64,000 nt of DNA from Levilactobacillus tongjiangensis (lineage in GTDB: Bacteria; Bacillota; Bacilli; Lactobacillales; Lactobacillaceae): positions 1 through 64,000 of the forward strand of contig NZ_RHNY01000010.1 of assembly GCF_003946345.1 (NCBI RefSeq). Direction: 5' to 3'. Below are positions 5,355 to 27,243 of this stretch, piece after piece (position 1 is the first letter of the stretch; every line of letters begins with the position of its first letter). The notes under the pieces were generated by a model. It did no database searches, had not been told where the DNA came from, and was given only the letters and a program-made list of their open reading frames with translations. Made by a program: the position numbers and the translations under genes.

Positions 5355-5370
5355 TCTTGGGTTATGAGTC

Positions 5371-5469
5371 AATTCCCGATAGGATTCACGAGTTTAGTGA
5401 AGCTGCCTTGTAACCGAATGGCGACGAGATTATCGGTCAACTTGCCGTCAACACTATCTAGGGGGAATA
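5371..5469 (+). promoter_or_regulatory. SMK box (SAM-III) riboswitch
   Basis: All conserved blocks of the Lactobacillales SMK box are visible: ATTCCCGATAGGAT (5371-5384), GCCTTGTAACCGAA (5404-5418 region) and the Shine-Dalgarno block AGGGGGAAT (5460-5468). The GGGGGAA Shine-Dalgarno sequence can pair with TTCCC near the 5' end when SAM is bound, which blocks translation of metK. Compared with the minimal crystallised form, about 40 nt are inserted between the GTAACCGAA block and the Shine-Dalgarno block; this insert can form its own hairpin (GGC..GCC, GAC..GTC). Family knowledge: SMK boxes control metK in Enterococcus, Streptococcus and Lactobacillus. Confidence 0.93.
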
Positions 5470-5473
5470 TCCA

Positions 5474-6673
5474 TTGCAAGAAAGACATTTATTTACTTCG
5501 GAATCCGTTTCTGAAGGCCATCCAGACAAAATCGCTGATCAAATCAGTGATGCCATTTTAGACGCGTTGCTTGCACAAGATCCCGATTCACGGGTTGCCT
5601 GTGAAACTTCCGTTACGACGGGGCTCGTCCTGGTCTTCGGTGAAATTTCCACCAAGGCCTACGTTGACATCCAAAAGGTTGTTCGCCAAACGATTAAAGA
5701 AATCGGCTACACGGACGGCCAATATGGTTTCGATGGCGACAACTGTGCCGTTTTAGTTGCCATTGATGAACAATCACCTGATATCGCGCAAGGGGTCGAT
5801 GATTCCTTGGAAACGCGGAAGGGTGACGTGGATCCACTGGACCAAATTGGTGCTGGTGACCAAGGGTTAATGTTTGGGTACGCAGTTGATGAAACGCCTG
5901 AACTCATGCCACTGCCAATCATGTTAAGTCACGCCTTGATGCAACGCATCGCTAAGTTGCGGAAGACTAACGAGATTGATTACCTACGGCCAGATGCAAA
6001 GGCTGAAGTTACGGTCGAATACGATGACAATGACAAGCCAATGCGAGTCGATACGGTGGTTTTGAGTACGCAACATGATCCTGACGTGACGTTAGACCAA
6101 ATTCGTCAAGACGTGATCAATCAAGTGGTTAAGGAAGTTATTCCAGCTAACCTGCTTGATGATCAGACCAAGTACTTTATCAACCCAACTGGCCGGTTCG
6201 TTATTGGTGGTCCCCAAGGGGATGCTGGTTTAACGGGTCGGAAGATTATCGTTGATACGTACGGTGGTGCTGCTCATCATGGTGGTGGGGCCTTCTCAGG
6301 GAAGGACGCCACGAAGGTTGACCGTTCTGCTAGTTACGCAGCGCGGTACATTGCTAAGAACATTGTGGCTGCTAAGTTGGCATCCGAATGTGAAGTGCAG
6401 ATTGCCTACGCCATTGGTGTGGCCGAACCAGTTTCTGTGTACGTGAACACCTTTGGCACGGGGACCGTTGCGGAAAGTAAATTATCCGCAGCCGTTCGTG
6501 ACTTGTTTGATCTTCGTCCAGCCGGAATCATCAAGATGCTCGACTTACAACGGCCAATTTATAAGCAAACTGCCGCATACGGCCATTTTGGTCGGACCGA
6601 CATCGATTTGCCTTGGGAACACCTTGATAAGGTCGACGCTTTGAAGGCGGCTTGTGAAGTAGCAACAAAATAA
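5474..6673 (+). CDS. metK: S-adenosylmethionine synthetase
   Basis: 399 residues, full length. It makes SAM from methionine and ATP. Recognisable family motifs are [13 protein letters not shown] at the N terminus, [12 protein letters not shown] in the middle and [16 protein letters not shown] near residue 270. The start is TTG at 5474, five nt after the AGGGGGAAT Shine-Dalgarno block, which the upstream SMK box can sequester. The weak start codon together with the sequestered site gives tight translational control by the product SAM. It is monocistronic and ends at a strong terminator. Confidence 0.98.
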
Positions 6674-10440: not shown

Positions 10441-10605
10441 GCCTTGCCGGTTGGCAGATATGGGCTGGAACGGTGCGGGCACAACTTGAAGCCTCGAAAA
10501 CCACGAGTCTACAAGCTTGGCCTTATTCTAAGCCAGTGGGGAAATCACCCGCCGACTAAGAATAATTTCGCGCCTGAGCCCATATCTGCCAACCTATCGG
10601 CTTAG
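10441..10605 (+). repeat. Structured repeat, copy D (family of CGCCTTRCCGG repeats)
   Basis: Perfect 18-bp inverted arms (GGTTGGCAGATATGGGCT starting near 10449, its complement at 10577-10594) enclose further nested pairs, including TTATTCT/AGAATAA and CTCG/CGAG. It starts with CGCCTTGCCGG and continues with GCTGGAACGGTGCGGGCACA, the same module found in copies A and E. No terminal inverted repeat or target duplication is visible. It begins about 12 nt after the HAD stop codon and may act as, or be inserted near, a 3' end. Confidence 0.7.
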
Positions 10606-14656: not shown

Positions 14657-14896
14657 CCGTCCACCTGCGGCTGTCAAAGATTCCGTCTTAGGTTAAACAG
14701 GTTCGTGGAAACTAAGCTAGCTTAAATGCCTGAACAACAGCATTTACTCAATATTATCGGTAATCCGCTAGGTAGCTGAGAGTGAGTCAAATTAGTACCT
14801 AGCCGTGGTATTTTCAAGTGAGGGACAGGACCGCTTCTTGGCTTGTCCCGTCCTTCCCATCGCGTTCCAGTCCGTAGCTGGCGGCCGGTAAGGCGA
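14657..14896 (-). repeat. Structured repeat, copy A (partial)
   Basis: Read on the minus strand it starts CGCCTTACCGGCCGCCAG, continues through CTGGAACGCG, GGGAAGGACGGGACAAGCC, TTTGACTCACTCTC, ATATTGAGTAAATGCTG, CAGGCATTTAAGCTAGCT and CTGTTTAACC, and ends with TTTGACAGCCGCAGGTGG. Every block is found in the same order in copy C (22618-23212), but the central hairpin module of about 170 bp, between GTTTAACC and the GACAGCCG block, is missing. No terminal inverted repeat is visible. One end is 22 bp from the dehydrogenase stop codon. Confidence 0.8.
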
Positions 14897-16045: not shown

Positions 16046-16465
16046 TTATACTTTTTGTTGATTGGCAATGTATTTTTCCACGGTCGTCTTGCTCATGTCA
16101 CCCAGGGTACTCATGAAGTAACTAGGAGACCAAAGATGTCCACCCCAGAATTTTTGAGCCTTTATCTCTGGATGTAGTTCGAAAAATAAGCGAGCCGAAC
16201 CGCCCTTAAAGGCTTTGACAATATTAGTTGGTGCGTACTTGGGCTTAAAACTTAGTAGTAAGTGAATATGGTCAGGCATTACTTCTATTTGCTCAATGGT
16301 CACTTCGTTCAGTCGGGCTATTTTTGTTAGAATGTCAGTCATTTCAGCGACTAACTTTGGTGTTGTAAACGATTCGTGCCGGTATTTAGTGACCCAGACT
16401 AAGTGAAAATGAAAGTTGTAAACATAGCCTCGTTCGTGAATTACTCCGCCAATAGTTTTGCTCAT
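16046..16465 (-). CDS. tnpA: IS200/IS605 transposase TnpA (Y1 HUH)
   Basis: 139 residues, complete. It is a single-strand DNA transposase: the HUH motif is HIH in VMPDHIHLLLSF near residue 65, and the catalytic tyrosine is in TVEKYIANQ near residue 132. Other signatures are HFHLVWVTKYRH and FWGGHLWSPSYF. No stop or frameshift is seen, so TnpA may still be active if functional ends remain. GGAGGT precedes the start. Confidence 0.95.
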   Translation of the reverse strand: MSKTIGGVIHERGYVYNFHFHLVWVTKYRHESFTTPKLVAEMTDILTKIARLNEVTIEQIEVMPDHIHLLLSFKPKYAPTNIVKAFKGGSARLFFELHPEIKAQKFWGGHLWSPSYFMSTLGDMSKTTVEKYIANQQKV

Positions 16466-16562
16466 ATGTTACCTCCATAAATATTATTGTAAGACACTTT
16501 ACTATTGGATATAGTATACTCATATGGTACGCTGGTTATCAAGCAAAGGGATATGGCAGTTT

Positions 16563-16850
16563 ATGGCGAAAACGATGGCACAATTACCTTATCATTATGG
16601 GGTTAAGGTTAGAGTCTTTCCTTCAACCGGACAAAAACGGCTGATTAAACGTAACAGTGATGCTAGTCGCTTCATTTACAACGAAATGAACGGGATGAAC
16701 AATGATCTATTTTGGCTGAAGAAAGTTAAAACACCAATTACGCTTGTTTTGAAGCGAATCGCTGATCTGACTGAACGTCTAAAGAAGGCATCAACTGCTA
16801 TCTCCAATATTCACGGATGGCTCAATTTTATAGGCTATCGCTGTATCTAA
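16563..16850 (+). pseudogene. tnpB: TnpB N-terminal fragment (IS605 RNA-guided nuclease)
   Basis: About 95 residues remain of a protein that is normally 350-450 long. The start LPYHYGVKVRVFPSTGQK and RNSDASRFIYNEM is the characteristic TnpB N terminus. The sequence stops after the GWLN segment; no RuvC-like catalytic part follows. Its neighbour on the right is an unrelated small gene, so the 3' part and the end that would encode the omega RNA are deleted. It is not expected to have nuclease activity. Confidence 0.85.
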
Positions 16851-17177: not shown

Positions 17178-17230
17178 TAAAAAAGAGTGAAACAAGCGGA
17201 GTTGACTGCCTGTTGTCACACGTTTCGACT
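17178..17230 (-). terminator. Weak terminator-like structure
   Basis: On the minus strand AGTCGAAAC and GTTTCACTC can pair and are followed by TTTTTTATTG, with a large loop between. It overlaps the left target duplication of the repeat at 17236. Confidence 0.35.
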
Positions 17231-17235
17231 AGATA

Positions 17236-17681
17236 CTAAAGAGTTGAAGGTTGGAAAATCGTTATCAAGCCAAGAATCGTAAGGCGTTATAGACTTAAAA
17301 TTAATCTCACCCAGCCACTGGAGGTAGTCAGAGATTCCGCCTGCTGTGGGGAACACCTCCGGCCTGAAAAGCGGTCCTTCGGCTCAGTTTGAAGACTGGA
17401 AGAACCACCAGTCTTCAAACACGTCTCACGCTGTAAGCCGAGAATCGGCTAACACCATCGACACAACTGGCTCCACCTCTGACTGCCTCCGGTTAAACAG
17501 GTTAGCTGGCTCAGATGCCCGAATGACAGCACTTACTCAGCATTAAAGGCGCCCACACTGAGTAGCCGAGAGTGAGTCAAATTTGGCGAACGGTAAGGCA
17601 GTAACTTTCCACTAGTTCTGACTAACCATCAACCCTTGTTGTATCAGGTATAGTGGGTATTTCAGCGCTTTCAACCTTTAG
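17236..17681 (-). mobile_element. MITE-like structured element, copy B
   Basis: 446 bp with terminal inverted repeats: CTAAAGAGTTGAAGG at the left end and, as complement of the right end (17668-17681), CTAAAGGTTGAAAG. A perfect 7-bp direct repeat CTAGATA flanks it (17229-17235 and 17682-17688), the mark of insertion. It encodes no protein. Its inside is highly structured: GTTTGAAGACTGG/CCAGTCTTCAAAC (17387-17420) is a perfect 13-bp hairpin nested within GGAGGTAGTCAGAG/CTCTGACTGCCTCC (17320-17333 and 17477-17490). It is in inverse orientation to copy C and lacks about 140 bp that C has between two CAAATTTG copies. Confidence 0.85.
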
Positions 17682-17734
17682 CTAGATACATTTGGCGAGC
17701 AAAAAGAGTCTAAGACTTCTGTCTTTAACCCAAC

Positions 17735-17920
17735 AAAAAAAGCCATTACGAGAAATCGCAATGGCCAAAGAGTAAGGTTACAACATAATTGGGGGATTAT
17801 GTTGTAAAAAATTTCATCTACTTTGGGGGAGTAAAATGAAATCTGTCTGTTGAATGAGGACAGAAGCCTCACGAACAAGCTAAACTTGCCCGCAACCATA
17901 TAGTACCGCATTCTATATAA
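17735..17920 (-). ncRNA. Candidate small RNA with two CCCCC-loop hairpins
   Basis: Read on the minus strand, hairpin 1 (17811-17841) pairs TTTCAT..ACT with AGTAGATGAAA around CCCCCAAA, hairpin 2 (17778-17807) pairs TTACAACATAAT with ATTATGTTGTAA around CCCCCA, and a terminator follows (GCCATT/AATGGC, then seven T, 17735-17765). C-rich single-stranded loops are the usual seed of Gram-positive small RNAs that bind Shine-Dalgarno sequences (for example RsaE and LhrC types). The 5' end is estimated; an AT-rich stretch with TATATAGAAT lies near 17911-17922. No known RNA family is recognised. Confidence 0.6.
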
Positions 17921-18051
17921 AAATGCTATTAAAAAATAAATAATTCATAAAATCGATTTGGCTAACTAATGTAAAGTAACGTTTTGTCGCTTATTAACAG
18001 GCTTTACCCGAGTTAGTTAGCCTGCATAACAAAAAAGAGAGGGCGAATATT

Positions 18052-18732
18052 GTGCAAAGAAATCAGCCAAAAGTCGGAAGTTTTATGAGTTGGGGTTGGA
18101 TCATCCTAATGGTGTTTTTAGTTAGTGTGGTGCAATTACCACTGCTCAAGTTAAACCACGGAACGACACTTGACCGGACAATGTGGTCGATAATCTACCT
18201 ATTAGGTTTCGTGGTCACGATTGCTATTGGTGGGTGGCAATATCATCGGTTACATCCTAAATGGCAACGATTGACTGGCCAGGATTGGGGGTTAATGATC
18301 AAGGGCTACGCATTCATGATTTTTGCGGAAATTGTGTTGGGCGTCTTGAATAAAATGCTCTACCATGAAACGAGTACGCAGAACAATCAGACGATTACGA
18401 CATTGATGGATCGTGGCACGCTGACGATGGTGCTTTTAGCGGTAACAGCGGTCTGTGCGTCGCCAATCATCGAGGAGCTGACGTTCCGAGGTCTGTTAAT
18501 TGACGGGTGTTTCTCAGCGGAGTCATTTTGGCTACCCATTGTAATCAGTGGGATTGTCTTTTCCATTCCCCATGCCAGTAATAATCCCGTGAGCTGGATT
18601 ATTTACGCAGTGATGGGCGGAACTTTCGCCTACGTTTATAAACGTACAGGTAAATTGCAGAGTACGATCCTAATGCACGCTTTTAATAACCTGATTGCTG
18701 TTGCTATTATGCTAACGACACTTGGCCATTGA
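18052..18732 (+). CDS. CPBP-family intramembrane metalloprotease (Abi/CAAX type)
   Basis: 226 residues, with about six to seven membrane segments. The three conserved CPBP motifs are present: SPIIEELTFRGLL (EExxxR) near residue 145, FSIPHA near 176 and HAFNNL near 213, giving the Glu/His metal site. Such proteins in lactobacilli are often linked to bacteriocin immunity or surface protein processing, but no bacteriocin gene is seen here. The start is GTG at 18052 with AGAGAGGG upstream. It ends at a strong terminator. Confidence 0.9.
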   Translation: MQRNQPKVGSFMSWGWIILMVFLVSVVQLPLLKLNHGTTLDRTMWSIIYLLGFVVTIAIGGWQYHRLHPKWQRLTGQDWGLMIKGYAFMIFAEIVLGVLNKMLYHETSTQNNQTITTLMDRGTLTMVLLAVTAVCASPIIEELTFRGLLIDGCFSAESFWLPIVISGIVFSIPHASNNPVSWIIYAVMGGTFAYVYKRTGKLQSTILMHAFNNLIAVAIMLTTLGH

Positions 18733-18812
18733 TTGGCTACCGGCATTGCCGGCATAGATGGGATAACCTATAGGTAACCGGTTGGTAGGAGAACGAATAG
18801 ACTAAAATAAGT

Positions 18813-18842
18813 TGGCGGTCCAGTGAGGGCCGTTTTTTTTTT
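18813..18842 (+). terminator. Terminator of CPBP gene
   Basis: CGGTCC/GGGCCG stem followed by ten T residues. Confidence 0.88.
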
Positions 18843-18916
18843 GCAAACAATTGATTGCCGTCGCAACGGTGTTGCTTGATTTTATGATTTGAGGACTAAT
18901 CTAACTGGTTAAATGC

Positions 18917-18956
18917 AAAAAAAAGGAATCAGCGCCCAAAATGGTCGTTGGTTCCT
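18917..18956 (-). terminator. Terminator of ohrR
   Basis: On the minus strand AGGAACCAACGACC pairs with the opposite GGGCGCTGATTCCT arm around TTTT (with mismatches) and is followed by eight T. Confidence 0.8.
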
Positions 18957-18961
18957 AAAAA

Positions 18962-19438
18962 CTAATCTTTGTCGACTTCTTTAGCAATCAGTCGTTGATG
19001 GCTCACCGTATCCAGTTGATCTTTGACGGTGACTAACTCAGTCATCATGCTATCGATCTCATTGTCGGTCATTCCCAATAATGTTTGGCATTGGCCAATT
19101 CGAGAATAGACTTCATCACGCTTGGCTTCAGCAGTTTCAGTCAAATGAATGAGCACTTGCCGTTCGTCAGTTCGACTCCGAACACGTGTGACCCATCCTT
19201 GCTTTTCAAGGCGCTTGAGGAGGGGCGTTAACGTCCCACTATCAAGCTCAAGGCGTTCACCAAGCTGATGAACCGTCAACGGTGCATCTTCCCAGAGCAC
19301 CAGCATTGCAATGTACTGCGGATAAGTTAAACCAAAGGGTGCCAACGCGCTTTGGTAGAAGTGATTAAATTTTTTGCTGGCGGAGTAAATAGAGAAACAT
19401 AACTGTTCGTCCAGCAAAACTGGGGAAACTTTGGGCAT
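18962..19438 (-). CDS. ohrR: OhrR-type MarR family peroxide-sensing repressor
   Basis: 158 residues. The N-terminal DEQLCFSIYSASK carries the reactive cysteine (Cys14) of the OhrR group, and the winged-helix core LTYPQYIAMLVLWE and LDSGTLTPLLKRLEKQGWVTR with DERQV in the wing is typical. The family represses organic hydroperoxide resistance genes until the cysteine is oxidised. AGGAGG precedes the start. A matching operator lies in its own promoter (19479-19494), which points to autoregulation. No ohrA gene is found in the window, so its target is elsewhere. Confidence 0.9.
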   Translation of the reverse strand: MPKVSPVLLDEQLCFSIYSASKKFNHFYQSALAPFGLTYPQYIAMLVLWEDAPLTVHQLGERLELDSGTLTPLLKRLEKQGWVTRVRSRTDERQVLIHLTETAEAKRDEVYSRIGQCQTLLGMTDNEIDSMMTELVTVKDQLDTVSHQRLIAKEVDKD

Positions 19439-19472
19439 GGCACAGGCCTCCTTTCAAATACTTTCGAAGAGT

Positions 19473-19501
19473 ATTGTATACAATTAAATTGCTACTGGCA
19501 A
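19473..19501 (-). promoter_or_regulatory. ohrR promoter with OhrR-box operator
   Basis: On the minus strand TTGCCA (19496-19501) and TACAAT (19473-19478) are 17 bp apart. The spacer holds TAGCAATTTAATTGTA (19479-19494), a near match to the OhrR box TACAATTnAATTGTA. Repressor binding here would cover the spacer. Confidence 0.75.
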
Positions 19502-20035
19502 GCAATAAACCTTTAATTATTGATATTCTAATGAACCGTTAACGAAAAAGCACTAATGCATGACCACAATTTCACGATAACGTAACCTCAGAATAATTGT
19601 ACAGTAGAATGATAACCAATCACAATGATTATTGATAAAATAAGTTTCTATTTATCAAAAAGCTTATTTTACGCTATTTTGGTAGGCGGGATCAGCTAAA
19701 GATTAAGGTTGATTCAACCAAATGATTCTAGTTAAATTTATTCTTAAAAGGTCCCATCATCACTGTAACGAATTAACAAAAATGACACTAAAAATAAGCT
19801 GGCATCATTATAAGTTAGTTATCTTTCTAACCAATCTAAGTATAGCAGACCTATTGTAAAAGAAAAGTAAAATTAGTGAAATTATACAAAGAAACCCCGT
19901 CCTGAGTGACTTCCTGACAAAAAGTAACCTCACAATGTGAAAACTTTATCAGACGATAGTTTTGATTGTTATTAGGCATTGTTAATATCCAATAAGTAAC
20001 ATGGGGGAATCAGTTGCATGCCTATACAATTATGC
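19502..20035. other. AT-rich intergenic DNA
   Basis: No gene recognised. An inverted repeat TAAAATAAG (19636-19644) and CTTATTTTA (19663-19671) is visible. The very AT-rich composition differs from the neighbouring genes and fits upstream DNA of a large surface-protein gene. Confidence 0.4.
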
Positions 20036-20063
20036 TTGATATTTACTATAAATCAGGTACAAT
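20036..20063 (+). promoter_or_regulatory. Promoter of LRR surface protein gene
   Basis: TTGATA (20036-20041) and TACAAT (20058-20063) with a 16-bp spacer. It gives a leader of about 165 nt with a small hairpin GCCACT/AGTGGC (20195-20213) just before the Shine-Dalgarno sequence. Confidence 0.5.
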
Positions 20064-20237
20064 GAGGGTGTAATCAAACTATCCAAATCAGTGAATGTGT
20101 GAGTAAATATTTTATGAACGATTTGATTTAGAAAGTTGAGGTTAACTAGCTATCTGCTGATTCAGTTATTTTAATCTATGTGCTTACTAGGGAAGCCACT
20201 TACATATAGTGGCAAACTTCACAAGGAGGATGCTATC

Positions 20238-22559
20238 ATGATGAAGCGTGTTTTGGGTGAATCTAAGCAACATTACAAGAGCTACAAGGCAGGCAAACGC
20301 TGGGTTTTTGCCAGCATTACGGTTATTTCGTTAGGATTAGGTGTGACGGGTGTTAATGTGACTGCCAAAGCAGATGCGGCTGCGGACAGTACGGCTGAAT
20401 CAACTGCAGTTGGTGGCCAAGTTGATAAGTCTGAACAGCAAGTTAACCTGGCTAAAGCAGGTGAACAAGCGGGAGCACCTGAACAAAAGCAAAATGAAGT
20501 TTCTGGGCAACAGTTCGATGGAAGCGCTAACAAAAAGACGCCGACAACGGCGGAATCCAAGCCAGAACAGCAACCTGTTACTTCTGAAGTGGGAGCTGTT
20601 CAACAGCCACAGCAGGATGAGAAGCCAGTGGTTAATCCGGTAAAAGAGGAGCAACCTACTCAGAATGGTGACGCCCTTAATCAGGAGCCAGAAAATGTAA
20701 AGTCTGACAATGATCAACCGGCAGCCCCTAAAAAGATGGCCAGAATGGCGGCGCCAGCAGCCCCTGTTTTATTGGGAACCGTGGCCGGTGACCAGGCAGA
20801 TATCTATAATCAAGATGCATCAATTTGGTTGCCAGATGCGAACCTTCGTCAATTGATTGAAGATAATTTAAACTACCAATATTACAGTGGGACTCAAGCC
20901 ATCAATGACAGTAATTTGTGGACTTGTGTGAACTATGCTGGCTTTAAGGCCGGTGTTAACGTTCGTGAGGTTGGAGTTGCTGCTAAGGGTCCAATTACCG
21001 ATTTGACTGGACTGGAGTACTTTACCGTTTTGAATCAATTTATTTTAGGCGCGGATACATTCCAAGTACCTGAATCAGAAATGATTTCGTTTGCATTTGC
21101 ACAGAACCTGACTTCTTTCCAGATTGACTTTAGTGGGACGACTTGGAACTCATCGGCCAATGAGACCGTGCAAAAGTACCTGTCCGGCAATCAAAAGCTT
21201 CAATTTTTAAGCTTGACGCACTTGGACAGTACAGCGGCCGCGGCCGATGTGATGCCTGATTTGTCTAGTTATCAAGATTTGCAATTTATCGACTTGGTTC
21301 ACGCTAACTTAAAGGGCACAATCGCCTCATATGCTTACCTACCGAAGCTAAGCTTCTTCAGAGTAAACAATAATCAATTGACTGGAAGTATCCCAGAAAT
21401 CGGGACGTGGACACCAGAATTGACCACGGTGGATTTCAGTGACAATTTGCTGACTGGGGTCTTGCCAGACCTAGGTGCTGCTAATTTGCACTCCGTCGAC
21501 TATGCCCGGAACATGATTTCAATGGGGCTTTCACCTGAGTCAATTGCAAATAAAGAGTATGGTAGCGTTCGTGCTGGTGGTCAATCCTTAAATGCCGGTA
21601 AATTTGCAGTGACGAACAGTCAACCAAGTCTGGACCCAGTTACCAACGTGATCAGTTATCAAGACTTTACGACTGGTCAGGCAGATAAGTCTGTGAAAAA
21701 TACCCTGGGTAATTTTGGCAATGGTGTGACGATTGTTTACACGACTGGCAGTACGGCTGGTCTCACAGATTATCCAGCTTGGGCAGCGACGCAAACGGAT
21801 GCCTCCAGTTGGTTCACGGTAGTGGCTGATCCAAAGAATGCGCAAGGGTTCTCACTGGTAGCTAATAGTAAGGCAAAGTCCGGCAACTATGTTGTTCGGG
21901 TGATGACGGCCGGTGATACCAGTGGTCAATATAACGCTTGGGTGGCATTTACGGTTGACAATCAAATGACGACACCACCGGTTGATCCGGGGACGCCGGA
22001 AACGCCTACGCCGGGTGAAACGACCGGGACAGTTACTATCGTCAACGTTGATCAAAATGGCAACGTGCTTAGCAAGCGGGTTCAAACTGGAACCGTTGGT
22101 GACAGCTACACGGTTAAGGCGGACAGTATCGATGGTTACCAAATTAACGGTAGCGGTCAAGCTTCTGGCGTTTATACGGCTAATGGAACGACGGTGACCT
22201 TCACCTACAGTGCTGTCACGACTGGTGACGGTGCAGATACGGTTGATCCAGCAGATAAACCAACTACTAAGAAGACTGGTCAAACGGTGAAGAAGAGTAC
22301 CAGTGGTCAAGCCGCAGTTATTGCTAGTGACCATCAAAAGAGTCAGAGCACGGTTGCTGGTTCGCAGGTTGCTCATGCTAGTCAAGGCGCTCAGGCGGTT
22401 AACCTGGCAACTGATGGTCGGAGCGTGGCTAAGCAGTCAGCTAAGACGACTTTGCCACAAACCAATGAACAATCCAGTGTTGGCATTGTGGCAGCAGGAC
22501 TAGCTTCCCTGATGGGGGCGCTAGGTTTAGCTGGTTGGCAAAAACGGCGTCATGAATAA
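20238..22559 (+). CDS. LPxTG-anchored LRR/MucBP surface protein
   Basis: 773 residues from ATG 20238 (AAGGAGG 8 nt upstream). Order of parts: KxYKxGKxWV-type signal peptide (KSYKAGKRWVFAS, residues 14-26) cleaved near AKA; a Gln/Glu/Pro-rich low-complexity stalk to about residue 180; a globular region; leucine-rich repeats near residues 350-440 (LDSTAAAADVMPDL, NNNQLTGSIPE, DNLLTGVLPD); one MucBP-type domain near 595-660 (TVTIVNVDQNG, GYQINGSG); a Thr/Ser/Gln-rich linker; and a sortase signal LPQTNE near residue 739, with hydrophobic tail and KRRHE end. Sortase A would couple it to the wall; a mucus or host adhesion role is inference. It is monocistronic with its own terminator. Confidence 0.93.
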   Translation: MMKRVLGESKQHYKSYKAGKRWVFASITVISLGLGVTGVNVTAKADAAADSTAESTAVGGQVDKSEQQVNLAKAGEQAGAPEQKQNEVSGQQFDGSANKKTPTTAESKPEQQPVTSEVGAVQQPQQDEKPVVNPVKEEQPTQNGDALNQEPENVKSDNDQPAAPKKMARMAAPAAPVLLGTVAGDQADIYNQDASIWLPDANLRQLIEDNLNYQYYSGTQAINDSNLWTCVNYAGFKAGVNVREVGVAAKGPITDLTGLEYFTVLNQFILGADTFQVPESEMISFAFAQNLTSFQIDFSGTTWNSSANETVQKYLSGNQKLQFLSLTHLDSTAAAADVMPDLSSYQDLQFIDLVHANLKGTIASYAYLPKLSFFRVNNNQLTGSIPEIGTWTPELTTVDFSDNLLTGVLPDLGAANLHSVDYARNMISMGLSPESIANKEYGSVRAGGQSLNAGKFAVTNSQPSLDPVTNVISYQDFTTGQADKSVKNTLGNFGNGVTIVYTTGSTAGLTDYPAWAATQTDASSWFTVVADPKNAQGFSLVANSKAKSGNYVVRVMTAGDTSGQYNAWVAFTVDNQMTTPPVDPGTPETPTPGETTGTVTIVNVDQNGNVLSKRVQTGTVGDSYTVKADSIDGYQINGSGQASGVYTANGTTVTFTYSAVTTGDGADTVDPADKPTTKKTGQTVKKSTSGQAAVIASDHQKSQSTVAGSQVAHASQGAQAVNLATDGRSVAKQSAKTTLPQTNEQSSVGIVAAGLASLMGALGLAGWQKRRHE

Positions 22560-22580
22560 GCTGATGAATTTGTACACAGG

Positions 22581-22609
22581 AAAGTCGGGACAATCGTCTT
22601 GGCTTTTTT
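22581..22609 (+). terminator. Terminator of surface protein gene
   Basis: AAGTCGGGAC and GTCTTGGCTT pair (three G-U pairs) around AATC and are followed by TTTTTTA. Copy C of the mobile repeat is inserted 8 bp further on. Confidence 0.75.
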
Positions 22610-22617
22610 AGTAGTGA

Positions 22618-23212
22618 CTAAAGATTGAAAGCACTGAAACACCAACTATGTCTGATACAATAAGAGTTTGGTATTGGAATTTAGCCAGATATAGTGGGAA
22701 ATTACCGCCTTGCCATTCGTCAAATTTGGACTGGAACGCGGTGGGAAGGACGGGACAAGCCAAAGGGCGGTCTTGCCCCTCGCTTGAAGCCGAAAAGCAT
22801 GTCTTCAAGTCGCCATTTTCAAGAAAGTCACTTGAAAATCTCACGGTTGTGTCCAAATTTGACTCACTCTCGGCTACCTAGTGGCGCGCCAATAATATTG
22901 AGCAAGTGCTATCACTCAGGCATTTAAGCTAGCTGAGTTTTCAGGAGCCCGTTTAACCGGAGGAGGTCAGAGATGGAGCCAGCTGTGTCGACGATGTTAG
23001 CCGATTCTTGGCTTACATCGTGGGACGTGTTGGGAGACTGGTGGTTTTTCCAGGCTTCAAACCGAGCCGAAGGACCGTTTTTCAGGCCGTAGGCGTTCCC
23101 CACAGCAGGCGAAATCTCTGACAGCCGTAGGTGGATGGAGAAGACTAGTTTTAAGTCTATAGCACCTTACTATTCTTGGCTTGATAACGGTTTTCGAACT
23201 TTCAACCTTTAG
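22618..23212 (+). mobile_element. MITE-like structured element, copy C (longest)
   Basis: 595 bp. Terminal inverted repeats CTAAAGATTGAAAG (22618-22631) and CTTTCAACCTTTAG (23199-23212) differ at one position. A perfect 7-bp duplication GTAGTGA flanks it (22611-22617 and 23213-23219). It contains the modules seen in all other copies: CGCCTTGCC, CTGGAACGCG, GGGAAGGACGGGACAAGCC, TTTGACTCACTCTCGGCTAC, CAGGCATTTAAGCTAGCTGA, GTTTAACCGGAGGAGGTCAG and the central hairpin. There are two CAAATTTG copies about 130 bp apart, and copy B has just one with the segment between them deleted. No long gene; short frames in it are shared between copies only because the DNA is. Confidence 0.88.
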
Positions 23213-23317
23213 GTAGTGATTAAGCCGGCAGAGATAAGTATCGGTTGGGGGAGCTGGCTTTTCTTATTGTCGCTGGCTGGAGAAGTCGGTATACTATAAA
23301 TATTGAGGAGGGTGCGT

Positions 23318-26906: not shown

Positions 26907-27243
26907 CTAAAAAAATTGAAAGATAGATTGTTTGTTCCAATTTAGTCTTAGCAAGCATCAGTGTTGTTGACTTGGATGCACTCTGGAAGTCAGAGATCCT
27001 GGCTGATCTGATTCCGTTGCATGTTGGCCGCTGCAAATTGTTCGTGGTCAGATCCGTATAAATGAGCTAATAGATAACGTGTTAAGTATCAGTAGGGTAC
27101 GATGTAAGCCGAGAGGTCGCCAGATATGAGCTCAAGCTGTGTCCGCACTGTTCCAGCTCATATCTGGCGGCCGGTAAGGCGGATGAAAACATGAATGTTG
27201 TTAGAACCAGTTCAATCGGCAGTCAAAAGTTTTCAACATTTAG
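26907..27243 (-). repeat. MITE-like repeat, copy E (degenerate)
   Basis: About 337 bp. Candidate ends: CTAAAAAAATTGAAAG (26907-26922) and, as complement of 27229-27243, CTAAATGTTGAAAAC, both related to the ends of copies B and C. No flanking duplication remains. Inside, read on the minus strand, are CGCCTTACCGGCCGCCAG and GAGCTGGAACAGTGCGGACA, a perfect 15-bp hairpin (CGCCAGATATGAGCT, 27118-27132 and 27155-27169), and GGATCTCTGACTTCCAGAG. The order matches the family; much of the centre is lost. Confidence 0.7.

Follow-up and report, generated by a model that had tools for sequence, protein, structure and literature searches.

REP, BIME and REPIN sequences are extragenic palindromic units that occur singly or as inverted pairs. 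The pneumococcal BOX, RUP and SPRITE repeats are presented in an excerpt of PMC3049150 as dispersed, folded, non-coding sequences that are enriched between convergent genes, with RUP ends like those of IS630-Spn1. The ISPepr1 subgroup of the IS4 family is characterized, in an excerpt of PMC2266710, by ends of the form YT-AA-YTT---A, direct repeats of 7–8 bp, a length of 1500–1600 bp and AT-rich targets.

The window analyzed here (64,000 nucleotides of Levilactobacillus tongjiangensis, positions 1 to 64,000 of contig NZ_RHNY01000010.1) contains two related elements, copies B and C. It is highly probable that both are MITEs cross-mobilised by the IS4 family, that their cargo is a REP/BOX-like cloverleaf repeat, M, which lies mostly outside the MITE, and that the MITE arose by ends flanking an existing pair of M. 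A DDE transposase of the IS4 family (ISPepr1-like, NF049925) would recognise the 14-bp end CTAAAGGTTGAAAG, duplicate 7–9 bp on insertion and move B and C in trans. The mechanism would be the ordinary one of an IS4-powered MITE; the cargo is unusual and apparently an undescribed structured repeat.

The units of M, like those of REP, BIME and REPIN, are extragenic and occur singly or in inverted pairs, but they are several times longer and are branched. M is also dispersed, folded, non-coding and enriched between convergent genes, as are BOX, RUP and SPRITE in the excerpted account, from which it differs in being larger and branched, in occurring in many genera and in lying mostly without TIRs nearby. 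The likeness to ISPepr1 consists of an IS4-family DDE transposase, a size of 1.55–1.57 kb, CT ends and 7–8-bp duplications; the MITE differs in having no gene and carrying M, the end has a G at position 7, and the placement is made from ends, size and duplications.

Insertion sites and ends of copies B and C

The two elements and their boundaries are as follows.

17229–17235, unstranded: target duplication of B, CTAGATA; slightly diverged single copy in G031
17236–17681, minus strand: MITE copy B, 446 bp, with most of one module gone
17668–17681, minus strand: perfect TIR of B (end scan)
17682–17688, unstranded: second target duplication of B, CTAGATA; perfect 7-mer
22611–22617, unstranded: left target duplication of C, GTAGTGA; slightly diverged single copy in G031 and G032
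22618–23212, plus strand: MITE copy C, 595 bp
22618–22631, plus strand: left TIR of C, CTAAAGATTGAAAG (end scan)
23199–23212, minus strand: right TIR of C, perfect CTAAAGGTTGAAAG (end scan)
23213–23219, unstranded: right target duplication of C, GTAGTGA; perfect 7-mer

An earlier note on this DNA had placed both copies correctly and had recognised that each has a perfect 7-bp duplication of its own on either side (CTAGATA for B, GTAGTGA for C). The matching ends that it described are real insofar as the 14-bp end is shared, but the other end of B is imperfect (CTAAAGAGTTGAAG) and the left end of C reads CTAAAGATTGAAAG. The copies do lie on opposite strands, as claimed; the statement that they share most of their internal sequence has to be qualified, since B is without most of the left module of C and aligns to C positions 1–111 and 236–595 (blastn).

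Just left of copy B is an IS605-type remnant, comprising an IS200-like Y1 transposase gene (16046–16465, minus strand; PF01797, 132.3 bits) and beside it a short OrfB/TnpB N-terminal piece (16524–16850, plus strand; PF12323, 24.7 bits). Copy B is adjoined at about 17186–17235 by a second recurring motif, which is found near terminators and whose core resembles GCRCGTTTCGRC. Similar motifs occur in the left flank of locus L031, where the G031 copy is set in one, and in L217, L228, L333, L334 and L350. The motif may be a favoured target for MITE insertion; its 12-base form occurs once within the window, no more than expected by chance. The window also contains a tRNA cluster (3–572, Rfam) and a SAM-III riboswitch (5357–5476, Rfam 55.4 bits).

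Copy number and mobility of the family

The draft genome of the window (G000) comprises 2.72 Mb in 43 contigs. With C as query, 53 matches were obtained from the 40 candidates scored of 142, a lower bound on copy number, and the best other scored copy is 89% identical to C. Element C was matched in 28 of 35 genomes of the genus, and no match was found in plasmid and phage DNA. The end CTAAAGGTTGAAAG (at most one mismatch) occurs at 73 places in G000, versus 1 for the reversed control, and lies well above that control in nine of the ten genus or family genomes scanned, the exception being G015 (1 vs 3).

The assessment of target duplications covered 31 copies for which both ends were recovered; they come from G000 and a relative, G031, and include two orthologous pairs, and loci without both ends were left out of this count. 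Perfect duplications of 7–9 bp flank 13 copies, 20 match at six or more of seven positions, and a clear duplication is absent in 11. In 1000 re-pairings of the flanks, no perfect duplication arose and the mean at six of seven was 0.5 (largest 4). Short duplications by a transposase had been proposed in the earlier note as 7 bp; the family range is 7, 8 or 9 bp.

The site of C is element-free, with one copy of the target, in G031 and G032, and that of B in G031 and, less clearly (alignment only), in G032. The single targets at these empty sites are 1 to 3 bases off the 7-mers of the window. Fifteen flank-matched locus pairs (14 in G000) have a copy at an identical position in G000 and either G031 or G032, and these are therefore older, shared insertions. 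Some copies are missing one end or one module.

With its matching TIRs, a target duplication and empty site, and ends shared with an autonomous element (see below), the family falls within the MITEs. The reading of B and C as non-coding, non-autonomous mobile elements is upheld because of the empty sites, the duplications and the autonomous ISs with the same ends.

The IS4-family transposase as likely driver

In genome G003, the TIR adjoins the C-terminal part of a transposase of IS4 type broken by another IS; this piece of 155 residues scores 148.5 bits against NF049925, under the whole-protein cut-off of 250. A PF01609 scan of six genomes, with 30 loci fetched, showed a transposase piece next to the exact end only in the overlapping loci L234 and L239, while L243 holds a MITE and five others have only end matches with 1–2 mismatches. 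A search of 301 family genomes found relatives of the G003 piece in 41, and 67 plasmid records also have them; none was found in the 43 contigs of the G000 draft.

Among 30 transposase loci that were fetched, five show a stop-to-stop frame of 455–482 codons flanked on either side by CTAAAGGTTGAAAG ends, with CTAAAGGTTGAAA likewise on both sides. These five ISs are 1554–1567 bp long, with only 41–107 and 75–83 bp lying beyond the open frame; three of them are flanked by duplications of 7 or 8 bp, and none was seen in the other two. One further IS has one altered end, six more distant ISs carry CTGAAACTTGAAA on both sides, and the remaining loci are fragments or are without clear ends. Two full-length transposases score 501 and 481.6 bits against NF049925 (cut-off 250) and match Pfam DDE_5 and DDE_Tnp_1. 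Like IS4-family enzymes, the transposase has a Y..R...E......K run.

The 14-bp end agrees with the excerpted ISPepr1 consensus at seven of eight defined positions, with G at position 7 where the consensus has Y, and the duplication length and size of the complete ISs also fit that subgroup (PMC2266710). In the ISTeha4 copy that was examined, CTAAAACTTGAAA stands close to the ends; an excerpt of PMC10269466 reports frequent ISTeha4 transposition and places ISTeha8 in ISPepr1, and in that excerpt the same is not said of ISTeha4. Judged from these sequence matches, the driver of B and C is likely an ISPepr1-like transposase of the IS4 family (NF049925), which would act in trans. The earlier note had described a real element without recognising its family, now assigned as IS4-type and ISPepr1-like, and had overlooked inside it the inverted pair of a separate structured repeat, one with a wider distribution than the MITE.

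An autonomous copy was sought by eye in the G000 list of TIRs as pairs 0.9–3 kb apart, and none was found. Two such pairs in G003 were rejected as autonomous copies, as they have no transposase inside (100 of 120 TIR places examined). With no such transposase found in the G000 draft and no scored copy more than 89% like C, the family is an old one that probably no longer moves in this genome.

The inverted modules of the element

The cargo of C consists of two inverted copies of M (about 170–185 bp each), and that of B of one copy plus a remnant. The matches in the window to two models of M, R1 and R2, are listed below.

10443–10603, minus strand: solitary diverged M; R1 52.8 bits, R2 57.1 bits; no TIR (at most one mismatch) near
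14772–14892, plus strand: diverged partial M; R2 68.1 bits; also found as a repeat
17317–17495, minus strand: module M of copy B; R1 180.2 bits (in the building set of R1)
17562–17597, plus strand: remnant of the second module of copy B; R2 31.9 bits
22709–22879, minus strand: module M, copy 'A' of C; R2 173.1 bits (in the building set of R2); R1 41.6 bits, E 1.3e-8
22954–23133, plus strand: module M, copy 'B' of C; R1 201.6 bits (in the building set of R1); R2 37.6 bits, E 1.2e-8
27105–27178, plus strand: partial M; R2 50.8 bits

Modules A (C positions about 91–262) and B (336–520) stay alike across the genus, and the ends and spacer diverge. Read on the minus strand, A is homologous to B read on the plus strand: the model of either module finds the other in C with an E of about 1e-8. 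At the gathering score, Rfam gave no match to M in the whole window; at E up to 1, element C matched tRNA-Sec alone (E 0.68). No paper on the M repeat was found among the titles listed in searches of open-licence papers. A small protein starting from the GGAGG-ATG in M was considered and rejected: of 115 copies, 5 are without the start, 54 have frames open to the module end and 56 stop, 23 of these at 20–24 codons, which was not taken as a conserved gene.

Occurrence of M outside the element

In G000, 149 of 150 scored candidates (917 at first look) match R1, and these at least 149 copies cover 27 kb, or 0.99% of the genome. Of 301 family genomes, 62 contain M by R1 under strict filters, as do 10 of 40 genera. 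An order-wide draw gave 18 of 395 genomes, of which one lies outside the family (E 1.8e-5). When named genomes were scanned with a pattern, at least 114 stretches were returned; the 80 matches listed all belong to Lactobacillaceae or uncultured Lactobacillus, and include Levilactobacillus, Lactiplantibacillus mudanjiangensis, Companilactobacillus, Furfurilactobacillus, Secundilactobacillus angelensis and Lactobacillus sp. The same pattern found nothing in viral contigs. M would be a REP/BOX-like extragenic repeat of Lactobacillaceae that lies mostly outside the MITE and usually behind genes.

Genes around M were called by a simple longest-frame rule, and single calls may be wrong; the M-free gaps (n = 159) were drawn from the second sample only. 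Of the 79 distinct single M from two samples whose position was informative, 2 have divergent genes on their two sides, versus 47 of the 159 M-free gaps. This avoidance, the at least 149 dispersed and recognisably homologous copies in one genome, and the occurrence of direct as well as inverted arrangements are what would be expected if M were an independent mobile element inserting behind genes (moved, e.g., by a Y1 transposase as for REP, or by a retro-mechanism), with the MITE a late hitch-hike. We regard this as a serious contender whose chance falls somewhat short of even, as no partner enzyme was identified and no empty site or duplication was found for M alone. The avoidance is also weaker for paired M, with 4 of 37 in divergent gaps (P 0.02), and a strict rule by which a gene stop faces the 3' end of M held in 33 of 35 cases in the first sample and in only 29 of 51 in the second.

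Strong in the first sample and absent in the second, that rule was withdrawn; after removal of one locus common to both, the count is 61 of 85, and a third sample with short flanks gave 20 v 12 with 3 uncalled. One Secundilactobacillus locus was considered as a clean empty site for M alone and rejected, as its flanks are too diverged and the orthology is mixed. Paired M occupy convergent gaps in 15 of 37 cases, versus 17 of 159 M-free gaps (P 6e-5). Neighbouring M are divergent in 33 of 35 cases in the first sample, in 50 of 51 two-member clusters in the second (besides six larger clusters) and in 19 of 22 cases in G000. In G168, a Fic-family gene (PF02661) lies cassette-like between two direct M copies that are 92% alike (L227, 1483–2770).

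Origin of the element

For the MITE itself, the most likely origin is that IS4-type ends came to surround a pre-existing pair of M; the IS ends would have captured the pair, and the MITE would not be a simple internal deletion of an IS. Were it a plain internal-deletion derivative, with M as MITE sequence that outlived decayed ends, the identity of its TIRs with those of the ISs would follow, as would the copies that lack one end or one module. TIR-bound M pairs are known from two genera, which also fits; a genome of another genus has two copies with the same TIR, the M pair and 7–8-bp duplications. Nevertheless, we consider such a derivation improbable. The five ISs have no room for M, because so little lies outside their open frame. 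Among the best 43 M in G000, an outward TIR (at most one mismatch) lies 30–160 nt past the 3' end in 24 and any TIR within 700 bp in 33; the corresponding numbers for the 106 lower-scoring M are 4 and 11, leaving 102 and 95 without. A bounding TIR pair (2 mismatches) was absent at all 20 loci fetched for such lower-scoring M, two of which have stray single matches. In that other genus and three more genera, an exact 9-base inverted repeat is absent from the 110-bp flanks of seven of nine M pairs, although weaker ends could be missed by this search.

Fold and conservation of M

RNAalifold on 99 copies of A and 115 of B gave branched folds, with 55 and 58 pairs common to both strands. Covariation was measured in divergent subsets of 19 and 21 sequences, with structures derived from the same alignments. 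Paired cells amount to 97.2% and 97.5%, respectively, and 25 of 56 and 24 of 54 pairs of the branched cloverleaf are changed on both sides, numbers reached by none of 500 shuffles and compared with at most six in slid structures. Of ten covariation measures, the weakest was that of further pair types on the first alignment, which 9 of 500 shuffles reached. In G168, locus L296 has an M cut to a near-perfect long hairpin, its inner branches lost.

Constraint in place was examined in 14 orthologous pairs, after modules with more than 20% difference or less than 60% overlap were dropped. Differences in module B affect 39 of 1334 stem sites, versus 68 of 786 loop sites (P 1e-8), and in module A 72 of 1176, versus 62 of 714 (P 0.04). 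In all 15 pairs, undropped and with some mis-set boundaries, differences amount to 11% in the ends, 16% in the spacer, 7% in A and 8% in B. Most recent changes are single-sided, and pairs going from Watson-Crick to Watson-Crick number 2 in A and none in B.

In the orientation of M, single-sided changes between orthologues lead to G-U in 43 cases vs 30 to A-C (P 0.16); over all copies, which are not independent, G-U cells number 251 vs 137 A-C cells. The common pairs contain 5087 and 6311 Watson-Crick cells and, on the aligned strand, 65 + 136 G-T and 115 + 72 A-C cells.

The pairing of M is kept up. Template switching in palindromes, rather than selection, could have restored it in part, but a purely mutational covariation without function, in keeping as it is with the rarity of both G-U and A-C cells beside Watson-Crick ones and with the lack of a significant strand preference in recent changes, is a poor prospect, given that unpaired positions are conserved in both modules, that outer stems more than 100 nt apart covary and that, among recent orthologues, stems are less altered than loops.

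The fold is probably the means by which M acts, either as RNA at the 3' ends of transcripts or as DNA hairpins, and it would function at the 3' ends of genes. A fuller proposal is tentative and on balance doubtful: M as an undescribed family of structured RNA (or single-stranded DNA hairpins) of Lactobacillaceae, with at least 150 copies per genome 3' of genes, spread partly by the IS4-powered MITE as an inverted pair that places one copy in sense either way.

Implications

The MITE gains a likely driver, and a large, covariation-supported and apparently undescribed repeat that fills at least about 1% of G000 has been uncovered. Two questions now become testable, namely what keeps the repeat able to fold at 150 or more sites, and whether the MITE may serve as a vehicle for a functional structured module.
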